In this document: positions 5,366 through 58,739 of the stretch, in pieces | Position numbering within the stretch: the stretch's first letter is position 1 | Layout: each line of letters starts with the position of its first letter | NCBI RefSeq assembly: GCF_037975245.1 | Contig: NC_092563.1 | Span: 26,536,960 to 26,600,959 of the forward strand | Length of the DNA: 64,000 nt | From: Apostichopus japonicus | Taxonomy: Eukaryota; Echinodermata; Holothuroidea; Aspidochirotida; Stichopodidae | Direction: 5' to 3' | The notes under the pieces: generated by a model | Database searches by the model: none | What the model saw: only the letters and a program-made list of their open reading frames with translations | Told to the model about the DNA's origin: nothing | Position numbers and translations under genes: made by a program

Positions 5366-8300
5366 TCACCTAGCAACCACCTGAAATTCAAAAAATATGT
5401 TTCCACTGTTTGGTTTGAACGAGGCTTTGTAACTCAGTTTCTGAGTTTTCTCATCTTCGATGATGGGATTATGTTTGAGAAAATGAACTCCTTGCTTCCA
5501 GGTCCTGCACCATTCTAATTTATCAGTCGCACTGCCTAACAACCCGGTAGTTACAGTTGTCTCAGCGTCCAGTTGAAAATCCATCCATATGGCAATTCCA
5601 TGACAAGTGCCCGGCCTGTTATTAGAAACGAAACAAAATAAGCAAAGTATGAGGAACAGACCTGACGATAAAATGTTGGGAGAGAAAAACAACAAAGAGG
5701 AGAGGATTAGTTGCAGGAAGGGGATGATAAGAATGGGAGGTAGAACTTGTTTCATTGACCCCCTTGGTCCTGATTTTTTCTCTAACTTTCACAGCAATGT
5801 GTGTGTGAATAAGTTAAATTCATACTACTGTGTGGTGCATGTCTTCCACATTTGTATGTAAACTGCCTGATGTATTAGAGTAGGCCAGATTTGTATGTAG
5901 TCTGTTATTATATCACTGCCTGATGCGTAAGAGTAAGCCAGATTTTTATGTAGTGTGTTACCTGATGTGTAAGTGTAGGCCAGATTTGTATGTAGACTGT
6001 TAATATATCATTGCCTGATGTGTAAGTGTAGACTACAAACCATTTGGAATATTTCACCCACATCTGGCTTCTTAGTCTTCTAGACTGACCAAAAACTTCA
6101 ACACAGTGTCTACAGGGAACACTGCGGGATGAAACGATACACTGTGACAACCTGAATACTGCCTTTAATGGATAAAACAACAGTAGGCCTATTATTACAG
6201 AGTATTATAAATGTGAATGCTAATATTACAGAAAACAAACTAATGACAGAAATCTGATAACAATGTATGATTCTTTAAAGAAACACAATCACTGATTTAC
6301 CTGACAAAGGGTATTTCTCCTGTCACATTGATGGGTTCGTCTGGAATACAGCTCGTGAAATCAAATTGCATCAGGTCAAAATCAGAGGTCAAAGGGCATC
6401 CAGGATATTCCCAGAGATGGTGAGGTTCCTCCTTGGCATCGGTGTCTTTGGCTGCTCTCTGCAGAGAGGAAGAAATCACATAAATGATAACGAAATTTTC
6501 AACTGATGTCACATCCTGTTTAAGTTATAGTCAGTATCTACCAATAAATAATATCTTGATGAAATGGGAGATCAAGTTTATTCTCTAAAATGAAATGTCA
6601 AACAAGTAAACTAAATTAAATCTCAAAATGTGAGCTGGATATGAACTTATAATTCATAAAGGCATGAAATGAAAATGTTCATATGGCAATTAACATCAAA
6701 GAATAGAAAACAGATGAACATAGTGAAAATATTTATCCTTGGTGTCATCTCAAACCAAACATAAGTAGTATGGAAAGGCAGATGTCACAACAAATAGCCA
6801 TCTTTATCTATGTAATATCCCATTAGTTATGATTTATGGACGATCTTTATCTATGTAATATCCCATTAGTTATGATTATGGCCAATCTATATCTATGTAA
6901 TATCCCATTAGTTTTCATATATGGTCAATCTTTATCTATGTAATATCCCATCAGTTATAATTTTTTCACGATCTTCATCTATGTCATATCCCATTAGTAA
7001 TCATTTATGGACGATACCTGTGTCAAGTCATCAAAGATTCTGACATCAAATCCCTCCAAATCTCCCACTGGCGCATGAAATTTCCAGAGGTGCTCAAACT
7101 GGACCGCTACAGCCCTGAGACGCGCACCACAGGGCAGAATGGTTGCCCCCTCTGCGAGCCGTCCTGCGAGGGCTGTACGACAGTACCAGAAATAGAGTGA
7201 GTGCCATGGAAGGAGGCCGCTGGTGAAGAAGGGCTCCGATACCAATAAATCAATCTGTAAATGAAGTCAAAACTTCAAGCGGTTAATTATCCAATCAAAC
7301 ATGTTATATAAACCAAGTCTGTTTCACTGATAATGACATTTGGCCAAACTGAAATATTATCAGTAAAAGTCACATAGATACTTGGATGGTACATGAAAAC
7401 AATGTCATTTAGGCATTGTCATCCAAAGATTGAGTGATGCTTGTAAACAAAGAGTATTTGTACACTTTAAAACTGATCGAATGGATCATAAATGTAAATG
7501 CACTACCCTTCTCCTAAGCCCACCCATAACGTTGTAAGTCCTTCTTTTCCCCTGATATCAACCTTGTAACCATGCCTCCTCACATTCTACTCATTAACCT
7601 CCACTTCTTCCTCCTAGCCACACCATTACAATTTTGCATGCCCCCCCTTTCCCTTCTCCTAAGCTCCCATTTGTTATCTTGTCTCAGCCCACTTTTGTAA
7701 TCTTACCTAACCCCTTCCTCTGACCACACCCTTCCCCTCCCCCACTTCCATTATCCTAGCTGTTCTCCTTCCCCTAAGCCCACCTTTCTAATGCTGCTTC
7801 CTCCTCCATCCCCTCCCCCGGTCACCTGTCATTCTAAGCCCACCTTTGTAATCCTACCTCATCCCCTTCCCCTAACCACACTCTTGTAATCCTGCATCAC
7901 CCGTTCCCCACTTTTGTTTTCCTAGCTGCACTCCTTCCCTTAAACCTTTCTAATTCTGCTTCCCCCCACCTCCTCCCCTCCTGGTCACTCTAAGCCCACC
8001 TTTGTTATCCTACCTCATCCCCTTTCTGTAACCCACACTCTAGTAATCCTGTATCACCCATTCCCCACTCTTTTGTTATCCTAGCTACTCTCCTTCCCCT
8101 ATGCCCACCTTTCTAACTACACTTCCTAGCCCCCCTCCTGGTCACTCTAAGCCTACCTCTATAATCCTACCTCATCCCCTTTCCCTAAACCACACTCTTG
8201 TAATCATGCATCACCTGTTCCCCACTTTTGTTATCCTAGCTGCTCTCCTTCCCCTAGGCCCACCTATCTAACAATGCCTCCTCCCTCCCCACATGTTGTC

Positions 8301-11300
8301 ACTCTAAACCCACCATTGCAATCCTACCATATTAAGTCACAGCCATCTTACCTGATATTCCTTATCCTCTAGTTTCAAATCCTGAGCAGTCTGTGGTATC
8401 AGCTCGACCTTACCACTAAGGTCGTTGGCCTCCACAATCTCCTGCATGACTTTTCGAGACATAGAGTTTGGCTCCAAACTGTAAACCTACCGAACATAAA
8501 AATATAGATTCACTACAAAGGAGAGTGGGCATAAGGGTCTAAAGTGAGACTTTGAGGTCCACCGACAAATGCCCATTGACAGATCATAAAACTTAATCTA
8601 TATTCATGATGGACAGTAAAATGAAATACATTTCAAATGTTCCATTTATTGAAAATTCAGCAAAGATCATGTTCCTTCATTCACGATATTTTTCATTACT
8701 GTAAAATCTTTGAAAATGTCACCACAAGTTAGTAACGTCAGTCCATTTCATTATTTAACTTGTGTTAAACTTTGTTTACATCTTACCTGACATGCCCCAA
8801 GTCTTGCAGCAATTAATGGTAATAAACTGCCATCACTAACGCTCATGCAAGTTGTAGATGAATTGACCACCTAAAGATCATAAAATATTGAAGATTGTAA
8901 AAAAAAAACCAAAAAAAAACCATGATCAATTCCTAAAATTTCATCCCATAAGTTGGCTAGTCAACATTCTTAAGATATTCAACATATCTGGATAGTTATG
9001 ATATTAGAGCAACCATGAACTTCTACCCAGCTACAGAACCACTTTACATGCTGTCCATGAATATAACCTTGCAAAACTAGTATCTCTTCCTTGCATCTAA
9101 ACCCATACCTGTTTAAGCAACATATACCATAATTCCTAGAACCCCCCCCCCCCCCCTCAACCCACAAAATGTTCATTAGTTGCATATGTTTTAGAAAAAT
9201 ATGGGATATTACCAGAAAAGTGGTAACTTTCACAAATGTGTGGTGTTGTTTGCCAGTTCAATCTCCTGTTTCTTTCAAAAAGAAATATTCAAGTCTACAA
9301 AAGTACACAATTCCTACAACTGCGATCCTCTTACCTTCTGCAGAGCTGATATAAACTTGTCGTTCCTGGAGACTTGGTTCATCATCGCAAACCTCTGTCT
9401 GCTCCAGACGACGTGAGCTCCACACTGACAGATCGGTCTCTCTACTACTGGTTGTGCGGAGCTGTTGAATACAGAGAACCACAGACTGTAATCATCATGG
9501 CTGACAGTCACATCAAGCGATTGTCCTGCGGAAGAAAAATGTAATAGACAACATAGATTATCAAAGACATTTCTCAAAACATATCACTAATGGGTCTACG
9601 ACTCATCTGCACCTTTTGTCCTTGTTGAGACGGATGATTTATATAATCTCGCAGGGAGGTGGTACACATGTTGCCTGTAAAATACAATTTAAAATGGCAT
9701 GATCACCACGACTTTCGTCAGCTTTGGTTTCTGATATAACGTCAAGGTGTGAATTGCAACTTTCAAAGTCTAAGGTAAGTCTAAAAAATATGCAATTTTC
9801 TAGAGAACTAAGGAAGACTAGTTTTCAGAAATTTGTGCTCATTCATCTGCCTAACAAATATTACATGTTGCAACTTTTTGTCATACTACCGACCTTTCTC
9901 AACCTCCGTTGATGTTGGCAGAAAGTAAACGGCTTGCATCCAATGGTCCCTCCATGGTGCCTTGTCGCCATCAGGATGGACCCAAGTGGGGGCAGTACTT
10001 AGAATGACTTCACCAGCCTGGTCCATCTGTAATTCCCACCACATAAACACACAATGACATCTTCCCTTCCTCAAGGAATGTGCCTCCACTCTGTTCCCAC
10101 CTCTCGCCTTAAAGTCTCCTTTACTAAAATTGAAATCCAACATTCTAAGGGGTTCTGTAATTGGCTTGAAGAGGTCAGGTGACAACTGGCTCAGCTGGAG
10201 ATCAAATACGGAGGCAGCGCCCTCACATCTCGTCATTCTCGAAGGTGGTATGATGTCATCTGAATCAGGTACATTGATTGGCTGGAGTTTATGACACTGT
10301 TCCAGGTAAGTGGATTCTATCACCTGTGCATAGACTGTGGCTGAATGGGGAACACAAATACAATCTTCCTGGAAAATTGAAAATGAAAATAAAAAGAAGA
10401 ATTTTTATCTGGTCATGTTTCCTTTTTTATAATCCTGATCATGAACCACTAAAGCCCAAGTTTTCTCAAGTATATGAATTTATCAAGCTAAAGGGATTGT
10501 AATCATACCACCCAAAAGACACAAGCCAAACATATAATGCTATAATTATGCAAAGTTTGACAAGTATTTACCGAGTTTAACATTTACACATAGAGCAGGG
10601 CTTGTCAACCTTGATTATGGACTACATAAACCTTAAAGAAGGCATCCTATAGGGCCTGTGAGACTTCCAATTGAACAAAATATCTATAAATACTGACTGC
10701 TTGATTTTGAATTCATTCAACTATAGAGGTATTACTTCAAATAATACAAAAAGAACACATTTGATCTACATCTCAAATTGTCATTACACAGCTGCACACT
10801 CAAATTTAAGTGTCTTCCGACAATACTTAACAAGTACATAAACGAGCCATGGTAACTGACTCTACAGAATGCACTGTGTGGATTATATAAACCTGAAATT
10901 GAAAAAAAAAAGGGATTCTTCATTTTATGGTTATAAAACTAAGAATGTCAATAAGTATATCATTCCAAGGTGTTCTAGGTTCTAACAGTAGAGACTGATG
11001 GTAAACAAAATTGGTTTCTTGGTTCATCTGTAGGGGAGCATTGTTGATAAAAATAAATTTGACAGAATACATAACATTTTGAAGATTACATGTTTCCGCA
11101 AAGGAGAGTTCTTTGCAGAATTCCTTTTCACTTTAAATGAACCTATAGGAAGCAATATCTATACAGGGGGGATATGTGTTCTAACTATACTAACTGTTAA
11201 GAGATTTTTATGTGCATGTAAGTATGTCGGTATAGCACCCTCTCCTACCAGCTCCGGATCAAACACTTTTGACTATACTTACTGTTAAGAGATGTTTATG

Positions 11301-14300
11301 CGCATGTAAGTATGTCGGTATAGCACCCTCTCCTACCAGCTCTGTATCAAACACTTGTGACTATACTTGCTGTTAAGAGATGTTTATGGGCATGTAAATA
11401 TGTCGGTATAGCCCCCTCTCCTACCAGTTCCGTATCAAACACTTGTGACTATACTTACTGTTAAGAGATGTTTATGCGCATGTAAGTATGTCGGTATAGC
11501 CCCCTCTCCTACCAGCTCTGTATCAAACACTTGTGACTATACTTACTGTTAAGAGATGTTTATGGGCATGTAAGTATGTCGGTATAGCCCCCTCTCCTAC
11601 CAGCTCCGTATCAAACACTTCTGCTGGCAGAATGTTTGCGCGTCTCGATAGATCGCCAACTTCAGACAAAAACAAAAATAGACATTGTCAATATACTGAG
11701 ATTTTGTAGTACTTAAGTCTGTCTTCCATACTCTCACAACAATCAAAGCATACATACATTTCTTATATTTTAGGATGGTTCCATACATTTAATGTTTAAA
11801 CAGTATTTGCACTCATGCATGGTTTATAGATGGCATGTCAAAATACTGTACTTGTGGTTCATACGTTGTGAAAAGATTTAACACCGACATTGAGGTGCCA
11901 TTGGTCTTAGTTATGTGCCAATACTGTGTGTTATTTGAACAGATTTAACACTGACACTGAGGTGCTATTGGTCTTAGTTATGTACACATACTATGTGTTA
12001 TTTGAACAGATTTAACACCGACACTGAGGTACTATTGGTGTTCGTTATGTGGACATACTGTGTGTTATTAAAAGCAGCTGGTGGCATTTCACTGCTTAAA
12101 CCTAGACAAATCTAGTGAACCTATCAAAATATTTAGTGAGAAATTGAGATGCTCTCTCAAATCGCTTGTACTGGTGCTGGTTACTAGCCCATAAATTGTT
12201 GGGCACTTGTGGAAGCAAATACATTATAATATGTCAAATATTGAAACTTTACCTTGCACTGATTTAAAATCTACAAAAGATGATTTTGCAATTACATGAA
12301 AATTTAGGACATCCAAAGCCCACCAGGACCATACCTAGAGCTTGTTGTTGTTTTAGATAGTTGTCATGACAACCATAGAATAGAAATTACAGAAACCTTT
12401 CATCATGGATACATGTGTAATTTATGGGGATATTCAAAGCCCTTTCACATCATTAAAGCACCACAGCTTACTAAAATAAGAGATTATATCATCTACATAG
12501 TTAATTCTGGAAACAAATCGGTTCAAATTGAAACTGCCGACCTTACCTGGACCAACTGTCAGCTCTGTTGACCTCTTCATAATCACTTTAATTAGATCTT
12601 TGAAACCATTCTTGGCTACAATTTGTCGAGCTGCTCTTCCAATAGGCTCAAATGCCTGTGAAAGGTTAGAAAGGTATTAAACTCAAAGATGAAGCAGGTT
12701 ACACAGCAGAGCAGATGTATTGTTGTATGGTGCCTATTGTTTGAGGATAATATGAGAAATATGTAACAGAATAATGGCAGGAGGAATATTTCTGTAATAA
12801 GTGTACACACAAAAATGAAATTTTTCGATTTGTGTTTTCTTCAAGTTTCCTTGAATAAATATTGCCAGGAATTAACTTAACAGAATGATTAAGTAGCTCC
12901 TTGACCAGATTTTGGTGTCAAAATGCTCTGACACATCAAATTCTTATACAAAAATAAGGATATTTTTAAAGATAGATTTTGGAATGAGATCAAGGAATAA
13001 AAAATGTCAACTTGTCTTACTTCACATGCAACGACTGTGTCTGCTCCACTCTGTGCTGACATCATTGCTAAGAGACCTGTCCCAGTACCAATGTCCAGTA
13101 CATGTGCCTCTTTGCCTCTAGACTTGATGCTAGCAATAGCTTTCTGGATTCCTATAAGGTATTTCTTGTTCTGTTACAAAAGGTAAAATTAAAACAAGAG
13201 CCCAAGGGCACTGTGGTTCCTTGCTTGGGGTATATGACAATACACATATTATCAAGCAAGATTGGGCTCAAATAGTCCAAGTTATTGTGGTCCTACATGT
13301 ACGCATAAAGTAACCAACACTATAGCCAACACTTTTGTGATCACAAAATGTGATCGGATTTTTGATCAAAAGGCACTTTTGAGATCTAAATATGGCGTCG
13401 AAAATGTAAGGTGTATAAGGTCGCCTACAAGCGGGTCAACAGATATGATAACATTGGTGACCACAGATGACATGACCTTTAAGTTTGAAAATGTTCCACC
13501 ACCCCATTCACAACTTGTCCCAAATTATCAACCGTGTCACACCTTGGTATTGGGATTTAATTGCATTAAATGTCTAAAAATTAACTTTGAACTTGTATAC
13601 ATAACTTCACACACAAAGGTCACCCGAAGGTCAACCAATTGACATTTTTGATCGGTGAGACCTAAACGGAGCATCAAAACTGTAAAAATTCAAACATGTT
13701 TTCTTTGCCCATTTTCTCCCCCCAAAATACTAGTTTTTTAACATTAGCTGACCTTTGGTGACCTTGGATCACATGACCGCTAAGTTTGAAAATATTCCCC
13801 TATACCATTCGCAACTTGTCCAAAAAAATCAACCTTGTCACACCTTGGCACTGGGAGTTATTGCATGAAATGTCTCAAAATTAACTTTGACCTCCTATAA
13901 CTTCACACACAAAGCTCATCCAGGGGTCAACCTATTGACATTTATGATCAGAAGGTACCTTTGTCATCTAAAAATAGCATCCAAACTGTAAAAATCCCCA
14001 AAACACGAAAAGGTCACCAGAGGTCAAATTGAGGTCAAGGGTCACCCAGATGTGGGTGGACAATTGGATTACGTAGAAGCAACTCCCAACCCTAACTGAC
14101 AATTCGTTCTCAAGTTATCGCAAAAATACTAGTTTTTTATCATTAATTGACCTTTGGTGACCTCCGATCACATGACCGTTAAGTTTGAAAATATTACCCT
14201 ATACCATTTGCAACTACTCCAAAAATATCAACCACGTCACACCTTGGAACTGGGAGTTATTGCATTAAATGTCTGAAAATTAACTTTGACCTCGTATAAC

Positions 14301-20900: not shown

Positions 20901-23900
20901 AGATCAAAATGGAACAAACTTTTCTCTCTCACTCAGAAGATCAAAAGGTACAGTAATTCTATTAAAATTTAATAATTGCCAGTAGATAGTTTACCAGTTG
21001 GAGTATCTAGTCTGTTACAGTGAAAAGGATTTTCTGGTGACAAACAATGTGAAACTTATATTGAAGTAAAAATTCTTCCACACTGCTAGTTGAAAAGCCC
21101 TATTTCAATATCTTGTTACTAACCCGAGATATGGTTGATTGAATACATTTATGTTAACTGGCTAAACCTACAGTACTCCAGGAAGTTGGATCACAGTAGG
21201 GGTCTGTGATGCCTTCTGACCAATTTATCTGCACAAGCTTTACAGAGGCTATTCAACCTTCTTGATGATTTATCCTAATACAATTGGAATGTTTGTTTTG
21301 CTGTCACCTTTGTATGTACTTTGCAAGAATTTCATCAAACTTTATCTTTTTTTTAGAAATATATATTTTCTCTGAGGATAATTGATGAATAAGTTATAAA
21401 GAAAAACAAATACAGTTTCAGCTGAATTGCCCTGATGACATCATCCATTCCGCTGTTGCCATGCATTTACCAAATATTACAAAATTTTACAAAACTCATA
21501 TCTGTTTGATTAAAAAGTGCTATGAGGATGTGGTTTTTGCCTAAAGATTTGGAAAAGTTCAGCAGTTTCGCTATTCGCTTCAGCCACCAGAAATCCTCCC
21601 CCAAAGAGAAGAAAATGCATTTCAAGACTTGGTAGCCCATACTGTATATAATAAAAGACAGTAATCATGTAACACATATGTTGTTTGTCTTACAGAAAGT
21701 GAAAACCTCATGTCTAGTTTAGGTTAGTGTTATCATTCTGCAGATACAGTACATATCATTGCAAGATTTTACAAAAATGTGGAAATGTCAACCATTCTCT
21801 GTCTCACTTTTCTTTGCAGAAGGGATTTGATGCCCTCCTACAAACAATCAAGCATCTTTCCTCCAATTTCTCATCTTTCGATAAGGTACATTTTCTGGAG
21901 TCTGTCACAAACAAGGTATGTTAAACTTTAGTATTACACTCAAGTATTAAATAAAACTGACAAGCTGATGGTAAACTGACAATCACAAATCTTTGCTGTA
22001 TGATAAACTATCACAAAAGATGAATTAATGCATTAGTTATCTGTTAATGAATTAGACTAACATGTTCCTTTGTAATCTACAATGAATGTTGAGGTGGTGC
22101 ATAAGTGAACTAATTAGGGAATGCTCATGAATCTAGAAACTTGTTATTTTTTGAAATTAATACAAAATAACATATTCTACACAAAAAATGGATAGACGGT
22201 GCTCATTCAAGGTTCAATTTTACAATCTTTTGAGCTCACTCTGCTTACTTTAGGTTGTAAATAAAAACAACTAGATTAACAATTAGTTCCTTTGTAATCT
22301 AAATGAATGTTGCGGTGGTTCACATGTGAACTAAAGGGCTCATGCAACTAGAAAATTGTTATCTTGTGTAATTAATGTTGAATTTTACAATCTGTTGAGC
22401 TCACTCTGCTTAATTAAGTTGTAAATAAAAACAAAAGGTGCAGATCCTTCATTTGTGTCTTTGTACTTCTTGTGGGTTTTTTTCTTTCATTAACTTTCTT
22501 TTTTGACCACAGAAAGAATTGAAATTTAGAATTGTCATTATTTACCTTTTTTGTTAGATGCCATTACCCCTGGAGTTGATCTGGCTTCTGCACAAGAATG
22601 CTATCGTACCCTTGGAACTCTTCATTCAAGCAAATCTTGGAAATGGAGTAATTTACAAAAGACTTATCAAAGATTTACTGAGCCTCATCATTGGTGACTT
22701 CAACAGAGATAAAGAAGAACTATCAAAATGTATGATAACTGGTAAGAAATATGGAAAGTTGTATTTTTTTCCAATGGACATTATTCAAATTACATATAAC
22801 CTTTTTGCCCTTCCATTAGATTCATTTGTTTTGTTTTCTGGCAATATAGATCACTTTTTGTAAAGACACACAATGTAACAACAATGACAACTTCACTCTA
22901 GAGTTTGACAAAACAAATAGTTGGCTTTAGGTGGTTCATCTGCTATGGGAATCTCTTAGAGGCTAGACAATGTGGGGCTGTTTAGTTTGAAAGTAATCAA
23001 AGTATTCCTAATTCTGGAGATATTAAACATCCATTTTTGTCCCTAATGGCCCCTTATGGAAGTAACTAGACAGGTTTGTTCTCATGCCTGTTTTACTCTA
23101 CCTACTGAGAGATGTTATGTTACAAATGCAACCATCTGTAACTGAAAGAAAACAAAAGGAAAAAAAATTAAAGGAAAAAATAATCAATAAAAGGGCATTG
23201 ATAATTGTAAATCAATATAAAATGACTTTAATCAATTATTTAAGCAGCTAAGTTATCTTCTTACCTACAACGGCCCACATACATTGACTCTCAGTCTACA
23301 AGTCTCACTTTCGTATTGCATGAATGAAAAGATCAAATGTGATTTCGAGCTTTATTACTAAAGTTCTTCTTTGACATGTGGCTACTCTCACTGTTCGTCT
23401 ATTCTATCAGATTTACTTTCATTTTTGGTCAAGAATGCTTTCTCAGAAGAGGAACCGTCCAAGTCATCTAGTCAGGAACAACCTCTTCAAGAAGCTACTC
23501 AGCTTTTACTTGGAGCAATCTTTGAAGGTAACCTTAAATGTACCACTCTTTAAGAAGCTACTCAGCTTCTACTTGGAGCAATCTTTGAAGGTAACCTTAT
23601 ATACACCACTGTAAATTCAATGGGGAGGGCAGAAACGATTGTCATATATTTCTGAGGTAACATTAATTACCACATATTATCATGTGATCAGTCACCAACA
23701 CTTACATTTTACACACTGCTCTCACCTTTCTATGGATGGGATACTATTTACTGTTTTGTGGGTGCCACAGATAATGGTTTTAGGGTTCCCTTTTTGAATT
23801 TGAGTGTGAATGGATCAGAATTGAGTGCAATTTTATAAATATGTATTTCTCAATCAGCACAGTTCATTATGAAGTGTATTTAGCAAGACTGAAAAATGAC

Positions 23901-53711: not shown

Positions 53712-53865
53712 TGTAAAACTAACTAAATGGGCATTTATTGTAATTCATAAAGTAAGGGTTTGTTTTCAATGCTGTTATTTCTTGCTTCTAATTTATTCAT
53801 TATTATACCATATTTCCATCTTTATTCAAGAATCCATTGTGCTATCTTGTGACAGATGACGCAAG

Positions 53866-54232
53866 TGTATACCCAGAGGATGGCACACCTGGTGATGCAG
53901 ACGATGACCAAACAGCTCAAGTCAATGATACTGTAGAGAGTAATCAGCCATTTGTCTTCACGACACATGGAGGGACAACCCGAAGATGTGACAAATACTC
54001 CTACTGTCTAGTTTGTGAAGTAAGACAAACAAAGTTGTTGCATCATATTAGAAGTGCTCACCCCGAAGAAAATGAAGTAGCAAGAGCAATTTATTTTGAA
54101 GAATGTAACCAAAGGCAAGAGGCTGACAAAATTTGGGCCAAAATCAGAAATCTTGGTAACCACAACCATAATAAAGAAGTGCATCAAGGTCAATGTTATG
54201 ACCTTGTTGTTAGGCCCAAATATGGAAGTTTT
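53866..54232 (+). pseudogene. Zinc-finger exon of the element, copy 1
   Basis: An open exon starts after TTGTGACAG and encodes an acidic leader (DDASVYPEDGTPGDADDD) and then YSYCLVCEVRQTKLLHHIRS followed by AHPEENEVARAI. This is a C2HH-type finger like those at the N-terminus of animal Crypton-like element proteins (Cys-x2-Cys ... His-x4-His). The frame is intact to about 54230, the best-preserved piece of this element in the window. Confidence 0.7.
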
Positions 54233-54237
54233 CGGAA

Positions 54238-54640
54238 TTTCCATCTTTATTCAAGAATCCATTGTGCTATCTTGTGACTGATGACGCAATTGTATACCCA
54301 GAGGAAGGCACACATGGTGATGCAGACGATGACCAAACAGCTAAAGTCAATGATACTGTAGAGAGTAAACAGCCTTTAGCCTTCACGACACTTGAAGGGA
54401 CAACCCGTAGATGGGACAAATACTCCTACTGTCTATTTTGTGAAGTAAGACAATGAGTTGTTGCATCGTAGTAGAAGTGCTCACCCCAAAGAAAATGAAG
54501 TTGCAAGAGTAATTCATCTTGAAGAATGTAACCAAAGGCAAGAGGCTGTTAAAAATTTGGACCAAAATCAAGAATCTTGCTAACCAAAACCATAATAAGG
54601 AAGTACATCAAGGTCAATGTTATGACCTTATTGTTAAAAA
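54238..54640 (+). pseudogene. Zinc-finger exon of the element, tandem copy 2
   Basis: This is a 425-bp tandem duplication of 53813-54237, including the upstream intron and acceptor. A TGA directly after CEVRQ and later frameshifts (KNLDQNQ region) disable it. Sequence identity to copy 1 is high, so the duplication is younger than most other decay here. Confidence 0.8.
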
Positions 54641-55570
54641 GAGGCCCAAATATGAAAGTTATGTCTGCATTATGAGGTATGTTCTTTGTTCAGATTGTTA
54701 TGGTTATAACCACACCAAAATACTCTGGTTTCACAGAAAGGATCGTCAGCTACAGTCTGATAACACCCAAAATCATCCATATATGTGAAGAAGGGAAGGC
54801 CACTTCTACCCTCTGAAAGAAAGATTTCTGGACCATTTAAAACCGTTATGGACAATATGGTTCCTGATGGGATCACATTGATTGCCAAAACAAACATTGA
54901 CATTTTGGAAGTGGGCCAAAAGGAATTGGACAAAAGGAATTCTTCTAAGAGAGGAGAAACATTGCCAACTGTTCAAAGTCACAAGAGATTGGCATAACAA
55001 AGTAAGTGCAGCAGCTGATCTTGTTACTCTCTGGGCCTTTAATACTACCTTGAATGGTGCACGTTGTCTATCTGGAAACAACGAAGAGACAAAAGAACAT
55101 GCCCATTATTTGAATGCTCCACGTTTGTGCTTTGTAGTACATTAAAGAAGGTAGCAGAGATAAGGCTGCAGAGGTGGATGATTTTTTTAAACTAAAAGAT
55201 GGTGAGTGGAGGGCAAAGATTACAGCAACAGCTTTGCGTCAACGAGGAGAACAAACATAGAAGACGCCGAGAATTCTCCCTCTCACCTCAGATTGTGTGA
55301 AGTTTAATAAACTCCTACATGAATAGGAGAAAGACGTTAAAAGAACAATATTAAAACCAATGTCATGAATGTAGACTTCTACGAGAACTTAGCAAAGGTA
55401 GCAATGATACAAACTGTCTTTCTAATAGACAACGTTTGAGGGAAGTTGAAATGATTACCGTTGAGGATTACTGTACTTAGAGCAACAAGCAAGAAGCATC
55501 CAGTTCAAGATAAGATCCTCCAATCAGGCAGTACCAAGAGGCTGGTTGCCAGAGCCAGTCTACTGTAGAG
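54640..55570 (+). pseudogene. Middle and early catalytic segments of the element, copy 2
   Basis: Joined directly to zinc-finger copy 2, this gives VLCSDCYGYNHTKILWFHRK, then in another frame SGPFKTVMDNMVPDGITLIA, later AAADLVTLWAFNTTLNGARC, the KEGSRDKAAEVDDFF-like block, LTSDCVKFNKLLHE with a TAG, and a broken start of the catalytic domain at about 55440-55560. Order is normal here, but at least five stops or frameshifts intervene. Confidence 0.7.
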
Positions 55571-55594
55571 TACCAAATATTAAGTCCAAAGCAG

Positions 55595-56182
55595 ATGTTT
55601 GACTGGGATGATCAAAACATATCAGGGATAACGTTCTTCTTTGTCAGCAATGTTGAGGTTCCGGCAAATGCAGAGAAGTACAGACTAGTTGATAGGTTCT
55701 CATCATCAAACACTATAGCAGGAACACGATCTCATCACAGTTTTATACCAATTGATGGTGGAAAGATTGAGATGCGGCTACTCTCCAATGACCACCACTG
55801 CAACACTGTGCCCATTAGAGACCATGCAGATGAGAGAGAATCCAATTCAAGTATTCTACCTCAGGCTGACCTGAAAGAGTACCAACCCGGGCGTTATGTC
55901 ATCGCATGCATGTACGACAATGAGTGGTACATTGGTACTGTAGTGGAACGTGCAGAGGAAGAAAATTATGTCTTTGTGAAGTTCATGAAACGAACTAAGC
56001 CCTCCAATGCACTCTCACCACAAAGCACCCACATTGATTGTTGGATACCATTCCAAGATATCATTTGTGTCATCGGTGCTCCAGAGTTACAGGGACATGG
56101 TGGCCGCCAGTTCACTCTTCCTAATGTAGACTTAAAGCCATTCAAGCCAAACTGCAAGCATTCATTAAGTAAAACAAATTGA
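55595..56182 (+). CDS. Element-borne protein C-terminus with Tudor/SH3-like domain (195 codons)
   Basis: This is the longest uninterrupted frame in the window. Residues about 1-55 (WDDQNISGITFFFVS, then RFSSSNTIAGTRSHHSFIPI) match, from memory, the C-terminal part of a widespread uncharacterised animal element protein whose N-terminal parts appear here at 58740-60510. Residues about 90-170 (YQPGRYVIACMYDNEWYIGT, VFVKFMKRT, CWIPFQDIICVIGAP) look like a small SH3- or Tudor-like barrel. The start codon is only the first Met in frame, and the upstream part is absent, so this is a 5'-truncated piece. Its open frame suggests recent arrival or constraint. Function is unknown. Confidence 0.55.
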   Translation: MFDWDDQNISGITFFFVSNVEVPANAEKYRLVDRFSSSNTIAGTRSHHSFIPIDGGKIEMRLLSNDHHCNTVPIRDHADERESNSSILPQADLKEYQPGRYVIACMYDNEWYIGTVVERAEEENYVFVKFMKRTKPSNALSPQSTHIDCWIPFQDIICVIGAPELQGHGGRQFTLPNVDLKPFKPNCKHSLSKTN

Positions 56183-56417
56183 AGTGTGCTAACTTGTATA
56201 TGAACATCCAAGTGTGGTAAGAATTGTATGGACATTGAAGCATTTGAATGACATTCCTTATACTCCCAGGACAGGCCTCCTGAGAGTTGCAACGGTACCA
56301 ATGATATAAATATGCAATATGCAAGAGGACGTTAATGATGTGATTACATGTCATTAACTTAACCTAACACAATTTGTTATGTTACTTTTTGATTTAGCTG
56401 ACTGAAACAATGATACA

Positions 56418-56588
56418 GTGATCATATCACCAGAGGTTGATATTCACATCCCTTCCGTAAGTGAAGACTGTAACAGATCAGTAACACAAGACAGTAACAC
56501 AGAAGACAGTAACACATCCAGTTTCAATTTATTTGGAGAAGAGAATGTGGATAGTGATTCATCAGAATATGACAATGACGGTCCTTTG
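56418..56588 (+). pseudogene. Acidic N-terminal exon of the element, copy 2
   Basis: An open frame gives EVDIHIPSVSEDCNRSVTQD, then a Ser/Asn/Thr repeat (DSNTEDSNTSS) and ENVDSDSSEYDNDGPL, ending at GTAAGA. It is homologous to 52620-52737 but unshifted. The following intron to 56888 is shared as well. Confidence 0.65.
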
Positions 56589-56888
56589 GTAAGAAAGCCT
56601 TTCCACTCAGTGACAGTAACATGATCCTGGATGTGCAGTACTGTCCATTACTAAAAATGATTTTAAGATTTTATGTATTAGGTTTCAAAGATTCCTTTAT
56701 GGAATAAACATGGAATATTTTTATAAATCAAATTATTGGAAGTAAAGGCTCCAGTAGGGAATCAAAAATGCTTGCTTTTAAAACTTTAAAGTTCATGCAG
56801 TGTACATTTAGGTAGAGAAGAGACCCCCAATAGCTCAGTTATCACTTCTGGCTACTTGGTTTTCACTTATTATTCTTTCTGAATTGTA

Positions 56889-56935
56889 GGAATACCTGTG
56901 CTTCCAGATTTTGTGTTTGAGACTATCACGTTGTT
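56889..56935 (+). pseudogene. Short element exon, copy 2 (truncated)
   Basis: IPVLPDFVFETIT after the same TTGTAG acceptor as copy 1. Similarity ends abruptly at 56935, presumably a rearrangement or insertion point before the hAT relic. Confidence 0.55.
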
Positions 56936-57105
56936 AATATCAAGAGTAGCATTTTTCAGTGCCACGCTCTTGTGTGTCTGTGTGTGTGCTTTCAATGAAA
57001 TATAAATGTAGTAATGTAGGGTGATGTTGTTTCTGTATGGACCCAATATAAATAATATTATAAGCTAGCCTTGAATATCAATGTGACTTCCTTTTCAGAA
57101 ACTAA

Positions 57106-58335
57106 ACTGAGCCAATGTGTTCGATGTGGACCTCAGTAAGCTGTACGTTAGCAGCAAAAATCAAACAGAAATGATGGATGCTATCAACACAACCATTGAG
57201 CGAGAGATTGATAGAAAGCTGAAAGAAAGTAAATTTGTTGGGATCATTGTGGATGAGAGCACAGACGTCGCAATAAACAAGAAGTTAACAGTCTATGCAA
57301 GAATTGTTTTAAGAGGCATCCTGGAAGTTGTTTATGTTCACTGTGTGGATATAGAGGATGGCCGGGCTGTAACAATTGTTTAAGTTTTGGATAAGTTATG
57401 GGAACAGAAGGACATGGAACTAGCAAAAATTGTGTCATTAAGCAGTGATGGGGCTAGTGTCATGACAGGCTGTCGGAATGGTGTTGGGGCAATATTGAAG
57501 CGACTGTACAACCCCCGACATATCCATATCCTTTGTGTAGCGCAGTGACTTGCACTTGCTGCAGGAGACGCTTGTCAGGCAGTAAGCAGCTTAGAGGACT
57601 ACCAGACGGTGGTGCGACAGGTGAATAGGTCTTTTTTGCAAACTCGCCGGTTCGCTACAACTCTTTGCGAATGCTTCAAGAAGTTTGGAGAAGCAAGAGT
57701 ACTGGTGAAGATTGCCCATACAAGGTTTGTGCGCTGAAAGAATCTGCAACTTTCCAGCGGTTGTCCTTGCACCAAGCAGTGGAGGCACTGCATGCTTGTT
57801 ATCCCGCCCTTCATTCCGCATTGGAACACTAGGCAGAGAAATAGCAGAATTCCGAGGCGAAGGGACTGGCCAACAAAGTAAAGAACTTTGGCTTCGTTCT
57901 TGTTACAACATTCCTGCTGGATGTCCTACAGAGCCTTACCAAGTTGAGCAAAATTTTTCAAGGAGACGTGGTCGACGTCATCATTGTTCAGCCACTGGTA
58001 GCGAGCACCATCTCAGTACTTGGTACTTTCAAAGAAGAAAACGGGGCTTAAGTGAAAGATGCATATGAGCGGGTTGAGTCCAACGGCAGCTACAACAGGG
58101 TGAAGGTCAGTGATCGGCAATCTGCTAGAATGCTCTTCCAGCGTGAAAGTATGCAGTACATCACAGAATTGTGTACAAATCTGGAAAACAGATTTGACCC
58201 AATGTCAATAGGGCTTCTGAAGTCGATCAACGCAATTCTGAACCCTGCCCACATACCCACTACTGCTGAAGGAATATGTGAATATGGTGTAGGTGACCTA
58301 CAGAAAATTTGCGATGTGCGCGGGGCTGCGAACAT
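57106..58335 (+). pseudogene. hAT-superfamily transposase relic
   Basis: Conserved pieces in order are IVDESTDVAINKKLTVYARI, after a stop at 57381 SLSSDGASVMTGCRNGVGAI, HIHILCVAQ then LALAAGDACQAVSSLEDYQT, a frameshifted middle, and VKVSDRQSARMLFQRE ... SINAILNPAHIPTT. This is the order of the RNase H-like catalytic domain of hAT/DUF4371-type transposases: DEST includes the first catalytic Asp and SDGASVMTG the second. The His of the CVAHRLALA motif is changed (CVAQ-stop). At least two stops and two frameshifts make it inactive. The C-terminal dimerisation region is lost. Confidence 0.82.
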
Positions 58336-58739
58336 GGTTTTTCCGTTCCAGATGAAGTACAATAGCTACTTGGAACCCTGGCCCCGCCCCTCCCCACTTT
58401 ATATTTATAAACCGCATGTTTGTCAGACAGTATGTTGAACAATTGCACTGAAACATTTTACGAATTACACCAAAAGCCAACCCCTCGTATATTATGGAAT
58501 GCCTCACTCGAAATCTGACCAACGATGACTCCTCTTCCAATGCTTTTTGCAATCTATTTTGAATATGTTAATTATTAAGTAAAACTTTTAAAGTGACACT
58601 ACAGAGAACACATCTTGTACAACGTTGTACGTAATGACAACCCCCTGCATATGTACCCCTACTATATACCGCACAGACAGTATATGCACATCAGCCAACA
58701 TATTCCATTCACAGATTATGGGAAATACAATCTTGGGAC
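58336..58739. other. Spacer between mobile-element relics
   Basis: No protein family, RNA gene or tandem repeat recognised in this stretch. Confidence 0.4.

Follow-up and report, generated by a model that had tools for sequence, protein, structure and literature searches.

PRMT7 exon 4 continues into a tandem array in intron 4

The window, meaning here the whole stretch of DNA that was analysed, is NC_092563.1:26,536,960-26,600,959 of Apostichopus japonicus, 64,000 nucleotides (nt) in length. On its minus strand lies the gene PRMT7, in which the end of exon 4 forms the first unit of a tandem array of five 88-base-pair (bp) units that runs on into intron 4. Each unit comprises 74 exonic and 14 intronic nt and so spans the exon-intron boundary. 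The array thereby has the anatomy that defines a mirage minisatellite, a known class. The features concerned are as follows.

11547..11659, minus strand: PRMT7 exon 4, 113 nt, with acceptor TGAAG/, donor ACA/GTAAGT (slashes mark the boundaries) and phase read directly
10369..11546, minus strand: PRMT7 intron 4, delimited by reading exons 4 and 5, which when joined give a protein that follows PRMT7 over the junction; it contains copies 2-5
11184..11620, minus strand: 88-bp array of five units, from Tandem Repeats Finder (TRF) and comparison of the units
11620-11533, 11532-11445, 11444-11357, 11356-11269 and 11268-~11181, minus strand: array units 1-5, from unit comparison
11545..11546, minus strand: GT donor of exon 4 (unit 1), presumed to be the one used, from its in-phase join to exon 5

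The 37-residue peptide of exon 4 matched residues 132-167 of mouse PRMT7 (4c4a) with E = 1.3e-11, and hand-joined exons 1-5 matched the same protein over query residues 10-330 with E = 2e-119. Exon 5, which starts at 10368, corresponds to the Pfam PRMT_C match. Exons 3, 4 and 5 join as a single PRMT7 frame like that of mouse, and no new intron position is seen. Later exons were picked out by eye from their resemblance to PRMT7. Because these exons could be recognised and exons 1-5 match mouse PRMT7, the gene looks intact.

A preliminary description of this DNA had reported five exact 88-bp periods seeded by the true exon, each made of 74 exonic and 14 intronic bases. Both the unit composition and the seeding exon were borne out: the exonic part of unit 1 is the final 74 nt of PRMT7 exon 4 (11620-11547), and four further copies lie in intron 4. 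TRF, run on the window, returned 11184-11620 with period 88, 5.0 copies, 94% matches, 0% indels and a score of 776. Self-comparison with the Basic Local Alignment Search Tool (BLAST) gave offsets of 88, 176, 264 and 352 (best E = 1.9e-155), and the array had one match in the whole assembly (671,581,487 bases, 35 contigs). The placement of the copies downstream in the intron, and the view that they are young or homogenised, were supported as well. The short microhomology proposed at the junctions was also found, with AAG common to the upstream junctions of exon and copies. At the far end of the array, intron AGTTAGAACAC and exon CAGCAGAAGTG have AGAA in common, which may be the original microhomology.

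A separate 43-bp array (6800..7015, minus strand) begins at +3 past the PRMT7 donor at 7017, as judged from TRF and exon reading. It adjoins the boundary and contains no exon sequence.

Variation between the units and their donors

The period of the array is exact but its sequence is not. Compared with unit 1, copies 2, 3, 4 and 5 are identical at 86, 85, 84 and 81 of 88 sites, and so differ at 2, 3, 4 and 7. Copies 2 and 4 have two exonic variants in common against units 1 and 3, suggesting that two units were duplicated together. Units 1-4 encode an identical 24 amino acids. In the exonic part we counted six synonymous and two nonsynonymous events (synonymous fraction expected, 0.24-0.30), and both nonsynonymous events lie in copy 5. 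Copy 5, at the far edge, is thus the most divergent (81/88) and the sole copy with missense changes; in this single assembly the exon-side edge is not divergent.

The glutamates in this part of PRMT7 belong to the "double-E loop". Every unit had been said to carry the codons for both. At the first glutamate, on the unit edge, the exon has GAA; the codon aligned to it reads CAA in copies 2-4 and AAA in copy 5, and each copy therefore holds only one of the two.

The donor-like sites predicted at 11546, 11458, 11370, 11282 and 11194 are all present, with changes in copies 3 and 5.

11457..11458, minus strand: donor in unit 2, GTAAGT, identical to the true donor (sequence reading)
11369..11370, minus strand: donor in unit 3, altered to GCAAGT (sequence reading)
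11281..11282, minus strand: donor in unit 4, GTAAGT (sequence reading)
11193..11194, minus strand: donor in unit 5, GTTAGT, altered at +3 (sequence reading)
11523..11525, minus strand: in-frame TGA that read-through past donor 1 meets after seven intronic codons (translation)

Thus GT is kept in copies 2, 4 and 5 and replaced by GC in copy 3. Since read-through past donor 1 reaches the TGA after seven codons, splicing from any of donors 2-5 would yield the same truncated PRMT7. The preliminary description had proposed that the extra donors could compete with the true one or act as decoys. By analogy with amphioxus mirages, which are reported to splice normally, donor 1 is most likely the one used. 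We also considered the array as coding sequence: excising GTAAGTATAG (10 nt) from each unit leaves 78 nt in frame, and this was rejected because a 10-nt animal intron is not credible.

The array belongs to a class described in amphioxus

PMC3087553 reports "mirages" from the globin genes of amphioxus, citing Adh3 as another case, with units of 10-160 bp at either exon boundary; the PRMT7 unit of 88 bp falls within this range. According to the same paper, reverse-transcription polymerase chain reaction (RT-PCR) found splicing undisturbed by amphioxus mirages, which were proposed as a route to new introns. Two haplotypes carried 6 vs 3 units, Adh3 showed somatic instability, and mirages evolved in concert except at cluster edges. 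PMC3902484 adds mirages in PGBD5 and TnC. The amphioxus cases thus comprise Adh3, the globins BflGb6 and BflGb9, TnC and PGBD5, and BflGb9 has its mirage at the 3' exon boundary, as PRMT7 does. The differences are that amphioxus belongs to another phylum and that the A. japonicus cases sampled below are mostly on the donor side (7/8). Intron gain by tandem genomic duplication (the AGGT model) likewise copies splice signals, but PRMT7 shows no new intron. Ordinary intronic minisatellites have similar unit size and similarity between units; the PRMT7 array differs from them by including coding sequence and the exon donor. No echinoderm report of mirages or splice-boundary repeats was among the matches listed in the open-access literature.

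Boundary arrays recur in the window and in the genome

The preliminary description had called a minisatellite seeded by an active-site exon unusual. That judgement was not supported, given the amphioxus precedents and the recurrence of such arrays in another gene of the window and in myosin, kinase and CDK11-like exons.

23483..23610, plus strand: second boundary array, 63 bp x 2, at an exon end ...LLLGAIFE followed by GTAACC, with a TAA in frame within the copy (TRF, sequence, translation)

The exon of this second array was called from its frame and splice signals only, and five plus-strand peptides, searched to name the gene at 23.4 kb, gave no Pfam match at E 0.01.

For the rest of the genome we sampled 120 loci. 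Half of them, 30 of 134 matches to kinases and 30 of 70 to myosins, were taken with 1,500-nt flanks; to these were added, with flanks of 300 nt, another 38 myosin and 22 kinase matches. An array touched the matched exon in 8 of the 120 (5/68 myosin, 3/52 kinase), a figure that is not a per-donor rate because some kinase loci are long single frames, possibly without a nearby donor. Seven cases were on the donor side (L017, L032, L053, L082, L091, L104 and L105) and one on the acceptor side (L080). Donor-side arrays included 31 bp in 15.9 copies (L017), 53 bp in 17.4 copies (L032) and 220 bp in two copies (L053), the last absent from the TRF output. At L080 (G000:C19:15108633-15109391), in a myosin gene, positions 1-375 hold 125-bp units that are ~98% alike, each with an intron end and an exon start; the same array also lies in L037. 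L032, L082 and L091, each with an exon-donor array, fall within 16 kb (contig 4, about 23.98-24.00 Mb) and apparently belong to one myosin gene. L104 (G000:C11:6326796-6327620) and L105 (9612916-9613737) are CDK11-like paralogues, both with a 70-bp array in which 64 nt are exonic and 6 intronic; it may have arisen once, before the gene was duplicated. The eight cases are therefore not all independent. A microsatellite adjoining a myosin donor at L050 was rejected as a boundary array.

The match of L104 and L105 to CDK11B has E = 3.3e-38. Since the array in these two genes extends over the APE end of the activation segment, PRMT7 is not alone in having a catalytic-core exon within an array of this kind. 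The weight that had been placed on the active-site exon was not supported, and the PRMT7 copies carry one double-E glutamate only.

The ratio of donor to acceptor side, 7:1 (two-sided binomial P ~0.07) or 6:1 (P 0.125), makes a donor bias no more than a hint. Automatic scoring placed a donor in 44 of the 120 loci and an acceptor in 63; L032 and L091 scored too low for a donor and were included after visual inspection of the overlap list, and at L017 the script picked a copied donor. Scored boundaries lay inside arrays for 5/44 donors and 1/63 acceptors. Tandem arrays make up 20,133 of 205,620 bp (about 10%) in L001-L060, and the window itself has 15 array clusters. Donors thus overlap arrays at close to the background level. 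Around acceptors, arrays look depleted, and ~285 nt upstream the count climbs to 6/63. Such a depletion would be expected if the branch point and pyrimidine tract resist duplication.

With this recurrence, a structure that received its name in amphioxus extends to an echinoderm, where it is present in 8/120 sampled loci. Two questions become testable with ordinary data: how the splicing machinery passes over successive copies of a donor, and whether a selected exon steers its own repeat array.

Differences between exons and copies are mostly synonymous

Five sets had readable exon parts: PRMT7, L082, L053, the window array at 23483, and L104 with L105, the paralogues being pooled. Synonymous to nonsynonymous events numbered 6:2, 3:1, 1:2, 1:1 and 7:3, respectively, or 18 and 9 (18/27) for the pooled sets. 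Freely drifting copies predict 23-29% synonymous events, from which 18/27 departs at P 1.8e-6 to 5.2e-5. The copies include missense and nonsense changes and so are not themselves protected. The pattern suggests that sequence from the selected exon enters its array time after time, or that exon and copies undergo conversion, and that the differences are mostly synonymous for this reason.

An extension of this reading, which we consider rather unlikely, is that the coding exon acts as the master unit of its own minisatellite. Under repeated exchange, selection would purge amino-acid changes and the array would return synonymous variants to the exon. Throughout the genome of this animal, coding variation and spare donors would then arise from boundary arrays, most of them at donors. 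Several points weigh against the account of the PRMT7 array given below, in which sequence passes between exon and copies. The synonymous test was post hoc, made once the pattern had been noticed, and two of the five sets alone lack a synonymous excess (L053, 1/3; window 23483, 1/2). If half of the events are placed on the selected exon branch, 38-45% synonymous events are predicted and the excess is weaker (pooled P 0.002 to 0.018); under the same model without PRMT7, P is 0.02 to 0.08. Genome-wide, triple GTAAGT was found 5,016 + 3,626 (8,642) times vs 5,548 + 5,503 (11,051) for the backward control, and thus showed no enrichment; since the listed part of that control is rich in TGAA-type microsatellites, the comparison mainly shows that arrays abound.

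Origin of the PRMT7 array and alternative explanations

We consider it highly likely that the PRMT7 array is a mirage minisatellite that arose by tandem duplication and is tolerated in the intron, most likely without function. In this account a tandem duplication would have copied the last 74 nt of the exon along with the 14 adjoining intronic nt, probably through slippage or end joining where short microhomology occurs, and further rounds would have brought the number of units to five. The array would be tolerated because exon 4 still ends normally at donor 1, leaving the copies within the intron. Turnover would pass sequence between exon and copies, and protein selection on the exon would leave mostly synonymous differences.

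The retention of GTAAGT in copies 2 and 4, with upstream exon sequence intact bar synonymous changes, and the TGA that ends read-through could also reflect regulated poison splicing, in which the extra donors are sometimes used and nonsense-mediated decay lowers PRMT7 output. We regard this as improbable: copy 3 has GC and copy 5 GTTAGT, amphioxus mirages are reported to splice normally (PMC3087553, PMC3902484), and such arrays at unrelated genes suit neutral turnover better. The array itself probably has no function.

That the assembler multiplied a single unit is less probable still. Arrays are prone to misassembly, and PMC3087553 records one globin mirage judged aberrantly assembled in a draft genome. 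The PRMT7 copies, however, differ from one another, the structure recurs in other genes, and the genome matches an assembly built from HiFi reads that average 14.7 kb at 64x (PMC10344927), far longer than 440 bp.

Retention of the copies as coding, mutually exclusive or repeated exons, which would account for the synonymous bias and for the same 24 amino acids in units 1-4, is scarcely credible: copies 2-5 have no acceptor or pyrimidine tract of their own and are separated by just 14 intronic nt, the 88-nt unit length is not divisible by three, read-through runs straight into a stop, and copies in other arrays carry missense and nonsense changes.

Other features of the window

At 282-2551 on the plus strand are open frames that resemble exons of a mevalonate diphosphate decarboxylase. 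Open frames at 53792-58438, also on the plus strand, include a zinc-finger-like and a transposase-like stretch and have the look of mobile-element debris. Within this region, self-BLAST detected a 425-bp direct repeat at 53812-54660.
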